DNA from: Limimaricola variabilis
GTDB lineage: Bacteria > Pseudomonadota > Alphaproteobacteria > Rhodobacterales > Rhodobacteraceae
Reading direction: 5' to 3'
Assembly: GCF_014195545.1 (NCBI RefSeq)
Contig: NZ_JACIBX010000002.1
Location: 1 to 64,000 of the forward strand
Length of the DNA: 64,000 nt
The translations under genes were made by a program, and so were the position numbers. The first letter of the stretch is position 1. Every line of letters begins with the position of its first letter. Shown here piece after piece: positions 54,962-56,387 of the stretch. Under the pieces are notes generated by a model that did not search any database, had not been told where the DNA came from, and worked only from the letters and a program-made list of their open reading frames with translations.

Positions 54962-55756
54962 TCACGGCAGGAGAACGACGCCCCCCGACATGAGTAGGAT
55001 CAGGCCGGTGATCCGCCCCACTGCCGGGCCGCGCGGCGCCAGCTTCTCGACCAGCACCAGCAGCGCCAACCCGGCGATCCAGAGGGGGTTCATCACGCCG
55101 CCCACGAAGAGAAGCGCCATCAGCGCCCAGCAGCAGCCAAGGCAATAGCCGCCATGGCCCACCCCGATCGCCAGCGCGCCGCGCCAGCCACGGCCCCGGT
55201 GGCGGATGAGCCAGTCCACCGGCGAGCGGCAATGCCGCAGGCAGGCGCGTTTCGCCGGGGTGAACTGCCACGCCCCTGCGGCCAGCAGCAGTCCGCCGCT
55301 CAGCACCCCGCTCGCGCTCGCCATGCCTGAACCGATCCAGCGAACCTCGGAAAGCGCGGCCTGCGCCACCACCGCTACGAGGCTGAAGCCGAGCCAGGTC
55401 AGCTGGTAGCCCGCGACGAACACTGCCGTGGCGGAGAACGGGGCGCGACCGGTCGTGCGGCGGTTCAGCGCGGCGGCGAGCAGGATCACCGGCGCGGCCG
55501 ATGGCAGCATCATCGCGACCATCATCACCCACCACATCGCGAGCATCAGCGCGGCATGCGACAGGCTCCACCCCATGGCAGCGGAGCCGGTGCCTTCACC
55601 CGGGGCCGGAGCCACGCCTCCAAACGGCAGCGCTATGCGCGCTCCTGCCAGCGTATAGACCCAAGCCAGCGCGCAGACCGCGGCCAGCAGGGCGCCGCAG
55701 ATCAGCCGGTCGCGCCTGAGCAGGGGCACGAGGCGGTCCGCTGCGGCCTCAGCCAT
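54962..55756 (-). CDS. DUF2182 predicted metal-binding membrane protein
   Basis: 264 residues (ATG at 55756; an ATG at 55774 adds six). Six or seven hydrophobic segments. The Met-rich segment LSHAALMLAMWWVMMVAMMLPS (H67, M71, M74, M78, M79, M82, M83), the QFTPAKRACLRHCRSP motif (C172, C176) and HGGYCLGCCW (H201, C205, C208, C209) are the family landmarks. Pfam describes the family as predicted metal-binding integral membrane proteins. It starts eight bases inside the end of the DUF1326 gene, so the two are coupled. Metal and role are not shown by sequence. Confidence 0.8.
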   Translation of the reverse strand: MAEAAADRLVPLLRRDRLICGALLAAVCALAWVYTLAGARIALPFGGVAPAPGEGTGSAAMGWSLSHAALMLAMWWVMMVAMMLPSAAPVILLAAALNRRTTGRAPFSATAVFVAGYQLTWLGFSLVAVVAQAALSEVRWIGSGMASASGVLSGGLLLAAGAWQFTPAKRACLRHCRSPVDWLIRHRGRGWRGALAIGVGHGGYCLGCCWALMALLFVGGVMNPLWIAGLALLVLVEKLAPRGPAVGRITGLILLMSGGVVLLP

Positions 55757-56387
55757 GCACGACGCCCTCTCCATTGTGGTGCAGCCGGTTGAACTGGCCG
55801 TAGCTGTCGGTCAGGTCGAGCGAGATGGCGCTGTCGGTGCCGCTGCGCGAGGTGGCGCTGCCGATTTCCGCGGTCTCGAACTCGATGCCGCCGGGGATCT
55901 GGATCCGCACCCGGTGCTCGCCATCGGAATGCGGCGGCATGATCGGCCGCCCCTCCCCGGTCAGGACACCGGGGATCGTGGCCCGCGCCCGTCGCGCGTC
56001 GATGTCGAGTTCGAGCTCGATCGGGCGATACAGCGTCGGGTGCACCACGTCGGACATCGCCCGGAACACCCACCAATGCGTCGCGGCCTCGGCGGTCTCG
56101 CCGCCGTGGAGCACCCGCTCCAGCGCCGCGCGCTGATCCGCGTCGGCGCGCTCGTCGATCACCGCCTGCAATTCCCCGCGACCTTCGAAGATCGGACCCG
56201 GCCAGGCATAGAGCAGCGCGACAAGGAGCCCGTCGAGCCGGGTCTCGGCAAAATGGCCGCGCTCGATCCGCAGCACCTCGAAGCCCCGGCAATGGCCGTG
56301 CGTCGGAAGATCCTCGAACTGGCACGGACATCCATAGGCGCAGTTGCAGTTACCGAAGGATTCCCCCTCGATGGACTAGTCGATCAT
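55749..56387 (-). pseudogene. DUF1326 domain protein gene interrupted by an amber codon at codon 4
   Basis: Reading from the ATG at 56387, which has a GGGGGAGGGGG ribosome site, the frame is M-I-D-TAG-S-I-E-G-E-S-F-G-N-C. The TAG (56376-56378) occupies the place of the family's conserved tryptophan, nine residues before the N of NCNC. Downstream the gene is intact for 209 codons, with the cysteine cluster NCNCAYGCPCQF (C14, C16, C20, C22), PTHGHC (C33), LDGLLVALLYAWPGPIFEG and the usual C-terminal part. A shorter product of 175 residues could start at the GTG at 56276, but it would lack all these cysteines. It could be a true pseudogene, a read-through gene or a sequencing error; it is coupled to DUF2182. 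Confidence 0.72.

Follow-up and report, generated by a model that had tools for sequence, protein, structure and literature searches.

A probable recent nonsense loss of a DUF1326 gene, one of a dispensable DUF1326–PpoB2 pair, in Limimaricola variabilis

Introduction

In-frame stop codons are, according to the available part of Belinky et al. 2021 (PMC7918605), widespread in prokaryotic protein-coding genes and mostly short-lived. The case described here resembles those considered in that part of their work in that one in-frame stop interrupts a gene which is otherwise under constraint. It differs from them in its distribution: the large-scale analysis, as far as that part goes, concerns stops common to orthologues of at least two species, whereas the stop described here occurs in one genome only. 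The loss of a gene by a nonsense change is an ordinary, well-described kind of event.

The gene which carries the stop belongs to DUF1326 (PF07040), entered in Pfam as a protein of unknown function, and is followed by a gene of the PF09948 (PpoB2) copper-chaperone family. In Marinomonas, PpoB2 is encoded in an operon with a tyrosinase gene; the downstream gene described here is like it in matching PF09948, but is paired with a DUF1326 gene. The pair may have a role in metal handling. DUF2182 is presumably the label of the PF09948 family, and a literature search for DUF1326 and DUF2182 found no paper in the limited collection searched.

The Gene and Its In-Frame Amber Codon

The gene lies on the minus strand of contig NZ_JACIBX010000002.1 of Limimaricola variabilis (GCF_014195545.1), within the window, i.e., the whole stretch of 64,000 nucleotides that was analysed (positions 1 to 64,000). 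Its 5′ end reads ATG (56387–56385) ATC GAC TAG (56378–56376) TCC ATC GAG. Codon 4 from the ATG at 56387 is an in-frame TAG (56376–56378, minus strand), as the initial annotation had described it, and both sequence and coordinates agree with that description. The start codon (56385–56387, minus strand) has a purine run resembling a ribosome-binding site, GGGGGAGGGGG, two bases upstream, and the start ATG ATC GAY is common to the window gene and three same-genus relatives. The DUF1326 frame (55749–56387, minus strand), delimited by the sequence and the profile match, comprises 212 codons and a TGA, and codon 4 is its sole interruption. Past the amber the frame is open as far as the TGA at 55751–55749, and the 209 codons previously counted there are made up of 208 sense codons and the stop. 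The spacing from position 4 to N13 of the NCNC motif is nine residues, again as had been described.

Downstream of the amber, the encoded product scores 163.5 bits with PF07040 (cut-off 25, E 7e-48), residues 9–179 of the product lying on profile positions 2–166. Since this match begins past the residue of codon 4, the tryptophan discussed below is a feature of the homologues compared and not of the Pfam profile. The NCNC...CPC cysteine motif is present in the window gene and conserved across homologues; in the alignment of homologues called A2 (see below), the cysteines of NCNC/CPC and C33 are invariant or nearly so. Thus, the gene is like other members of DUF1326 in its profile match over the cut-off and in its cysteine motif, and differs from them in having a stop as codon 4, where the homologues read have tryptophan. 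NCBIfam holds no family for this product or for the downstream PF09948 product, and a search by sequence for a solved structural relative of the DUF1326 product returned none at E up to 1. The read-through protein was modelled with AlphaFold2 (mean pLDDT 93.3), and the first strand of the model begins at residue 4. With this model, Foldseek gave weak acetoacetate-decarboxylase-like matches (best E 4e-5), the best ten having TM-scores of 0.35–0.46 and an rmsd above 11 Å. This similarity of the model can be taken as a lead to the fold, not to the function.

The Ancestral Codon

The position corresponding to codon 4 was read in three overlapping sets of homologues, and every row read has TGG. This holds for all 26 rows taken from other genomes (L006 and L023 show one and the same gene), for 45 of 45 loci with identities from 86% to 43% (the truncated L115 included), and for all 78 near-full-length matches, representing 75 distinct proteins, after matches starting past query residue 6 or ending before residue 190 had been dropped. 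Alignment A2 combines 51 of the 75 distinct proteins with that of the window, and alignment A3 combines 42 of the 45 loci with that of the window. Throughout the 52 rows of A2 (51 homologues and the window) the tryptophan at position 4 is invariant, the window contributing a W because its TAG was translated as such. Among 295 genomes of the family, a protein search with matches listed at E up to 1e-40 and at most 10 candidates scored per genome gave 29 places in 23 genomes, and only the place in the window has an internal stop (TAG).

As all homologue rows read have TGG, the amber of the window is, judged from these alignments, derived, and it is seen in this genome alone among those compared. 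The initial annotation had given tryptophan as the family residue at this place and proposed TGG to TAG as the origin of the stop, and both proposals agree with the rows read. It had also named a contrary pattern, relatives which have no tryptophan here and start downstream; this was looked for in the homologues and does not occur, TGG being present throughout.

The homologues also include close pairs of DUF1326 genes. Four genomes of the family (G297, G067, G307, and G254) have two such genes each, approximately 4 kb apart or less (pairs L135/L155, L136/L160, L137/L158, and L149/L159).

The DUF1326–PpoB2 Pair within the Genus

The downstream partner (54962–55756, minus strand) matches PF09948 with E 1.7e-64 and its frame is intact. 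Its ATG overlaps the stop of the DUF1326 gene as ATGGCTGA, and this overlap of start and stop has been kept in all four same-genus genomes which have the pair, the window included. A single DUF1326 match is present in the source genome; thus, no second copy was found.

The pair (54962–56387) sits between rpmD and rplO. Both genes are present in four of eight same-genus genomes, counting that of the window, and neither was found in the other four. Those with the gene include Limimaricola soesokkakensis CECT 8367 and Limimaricola sp. G21655-S1, two relatives in which the gap between rpmD and rplO is 1742 and 1741 bases, respectively; where the pair is absent, the gap is 275, 294, 281, or 331 bases. 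In a midpoint-rooted and weakly supported tree based on a MAFFT alignment from rplO onward, three of the four pair-less genomes group together and G003 falls in an unresolved group with carriers of the pair. For G002 and G004 the ungapped identities (0.435 and 0.403, respectively) are artefacts, caused by an offset that had not been aligned; the tree was built from the MAFFT alignment instead. This placement of the pair-less genomes makes at least one loss of the pair within the genus likely. Since half of the same-genus genomes compared lack the pair, it can be regarded as dispensable, and a nonsense loss in a dispensable pair can persist.

A Probable Recent Loss of Function

Very probably, the amber arose recently as a nonsense mutation which abolished the function of its gene, in a DUF1326–PpoB2 pair that is dispensable. 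According to this explanation, the TGG of the invariant tryptophan, with which the first β-strand begins, would have been turned into an amber codon; translation from the normal start would be stopped by release factor 1 after Met-Ile-Asp, so that the DUF1326 protein would essentially not be made and the strain would lack it. Because the start of the PpoB2-family gene overlaps the stop of the DUF1326 gene, translation of the second gene may be lowered as well. Two marks of a pseudogene are seen here: the in-frame stop truncates the product relative to its orthologues, and the stop is derived, with a sense codon in the relatives. As to the place of the change, the intact relative L075 has 44 codons which are one base from a stop, and 15 transitions in it would make a stop. 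That a gene of this kind should acquire a stop at one place or another is, therefore, unremarkable, and codon 4 is one among several likely places.

The third mark of a pseudogene, relaxed selection, was not seen on the window branch, either in dN/dS or in a mixture estimate. The DUF1326 gene of the window is 86, 85, and 82% identical to its three genus orthologues, and the corresponding pairwise dN/dS values, with codon 4 left out, are 0.14, 0.16, and 0.26. At codons where the other three genus orthologues agree, approximately 14.5 synonymous and 7.5 nonsynonymous changes are specific to the window; the same count for G004 gives 13 and 12. A simple mixture gives 0–3% as the best estimate for the part of the window branch that was neutral, with a one-sided upper bound of 18–23%. 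All four genus genes are 212 codons long, and their alignment contains neither a frameshift nor a second stop in the window gene. This pattern of substitutions shows the rest of the gene to be under purifying selection, and the earlier suggestion that the change is recent or tolerated is borne out by the frame, which is intact past the amber, and by the small proportion of nonsynonymous changes on the branch of the window. That no relaxation is seen fits a very recent loss, and also fits an error in the assembly or a gene used via read-through. Most likely, then, the loss was recent or, with less likelihood, there was no loss.

A Possible Sequencing or Assembly Error

The first way in which there would be no loss is that the codon in the strain is really a sense codon and that the TAG was introduced by sequencing or assembly, which is unlikely. 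The gene is otherwise intact and constrained, as would be expected of an error in a working gene, and the genome is a draft of 37 contigs. However, the change is a substitution and not an indel in a homopolymer, and the assembly has a completeness of 99.55% and a contamination of 0.13%; these points speak against an error without being decisive. A coding-potential scan of the window also gave no clear second interrupted gene, but this is a weak argument: the scan listed 16 stops and the amber studied here was not among them, so that the scan is insensitive and its silence elsewhere proves little.

Decoding of UAG

The second way is functional read-through, in which the amber would be decoded by a suppressor tRNA or by leaky termination often enough for some DUF1326 protein to be made, in a small and perhaps regulated amount. 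This is considerably less probable than the recent loss set out above, and very unlikely in itself. The low dN/dS and the intact frame past the stop would be expected of a gene that is read through, and the available part of PMC7918605 reports dN/dS below 1 in many stop-bearing genes and suggests frequent read-through. However, a recent event accounts for the low value as well as read-through does, and the same part of PMC7918605 has the vast majority of such stops as short-lived. Furthermore, TAG is still in use as a terminator in the window, where 59 mechanically picked open reading frames end in TGA (42), TAA (14), or TAG (3).

The tRNAs of the genome can be considered in some detail, as the initial annotation had included a suppressor-dependent gene among its possibilities. 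A tRNA family search gave 43 places over the cut-off, of which ARAGORN named 42, and none of these 42 has the anticodon CUA. The remaining place is a tRNA fragment with which contig C11 begins; read by eye, its anticodon is CAT. The family search missed a tRNA-Tyr, which was located with an anticodon-loop pattern and has the normal anticodon GTA. Thus, no UAG-reading tRNA was found at the 44 tRNA places examined. These form an incomplete list: tRNA-Ile(gat) and tRNA-Ala(tgc) were not found in the tRNA searches of the genome, and some tRNA genes must, therefore, be lacking from the draft or have escaped the search. The genome does encode release factor 1 (477 bits, over the cut-off, covering positions 8–359 of 361, without an internal stop), and the best match in a search for PylS has 29.8 bits against a cut-off of 178.15 and so lends it no support. 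Recoding would be marked by a UAG-reading tRNA or a supported PylS in the genome and by a stop at the same place in relatives; the genome gave neither of the former, and a stop at this place occurs in none of the homologues read. Dependence on a suppressor is, therefore, without support in the places and genes searched, a suppressor tRNA encoded in a gap of the draft being left as a slight chance.

Three further places or tRNAs were considered in this connection. L123, with CTA at the place of the anticodon, is not a tRNA according to ARAGORN. An odd tRNA-Trp was rejected as an amber reader: the tRNA-Trp with four-pair anticodon stems in the available part of PMC13092985 concerns UGA, and the tRNA-Trp of this genome, with the anticodon CCA, has a stem of five pairs by eye. 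A laxer tRNA search gave one extra, very weakly tRNA-like place outside the window (G000 C13:10415–10472), with 17.1 bits against a cut-off of 29 and E 1.53.

Improbable Re-Initiation and Retention

A shortened working protein made by a re-start downstream of the amber, at the ATC of codon 6 or the GTG of codon 38, is most improbable. The GTG (56274–56276, minus strand) is the first in-frame ATG, GTG, or TTG past the amber, and it arose from an alanine-to-valine change that, of the four genus orthologues, only the window gene has. However, it lies beyond NCNC...CPC, so that the product of a start at codon 38 would be without this motif, and would drop C33 together with the other invariant or nearly invariant cysteines. 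The purine run adjoins the original ATG and is distant from both codon 6 and codon 38, and ATC starts are very rare.

Equally far-fetched is the idea that the amber has been kept on purpose, low read-through of UAG setting a tiny dose of a cysteine-rich metal-handling protein, while an AUG-AUC-GAC-UAG minigene and the overlapping gene order would tune the downstream PpoB2-like copper chaperone.

A Probable and Apparently Young Loss among Ribosomal-Protein Genes

A recent nonsense loss would make this locus an apparently young case of loss in an accessory DUF1326–PpoB2 pair, which is patchy across Limimaricola and is situated among ribosomal-protein genes. As a natural null, the strain could be a small convenience for probing the function of DUF1326. 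The position in the assembly merits care when it is decided whether the annotation should give a functional gene or a pseudogene.

One feature of base composition may be added. The tetranucleotide CTAG is strongly under-represented in the window as a whole, with 16 matches against a shuffle mean of 63.7, and the amber of the DUF1326 gene sits within a CTAG.
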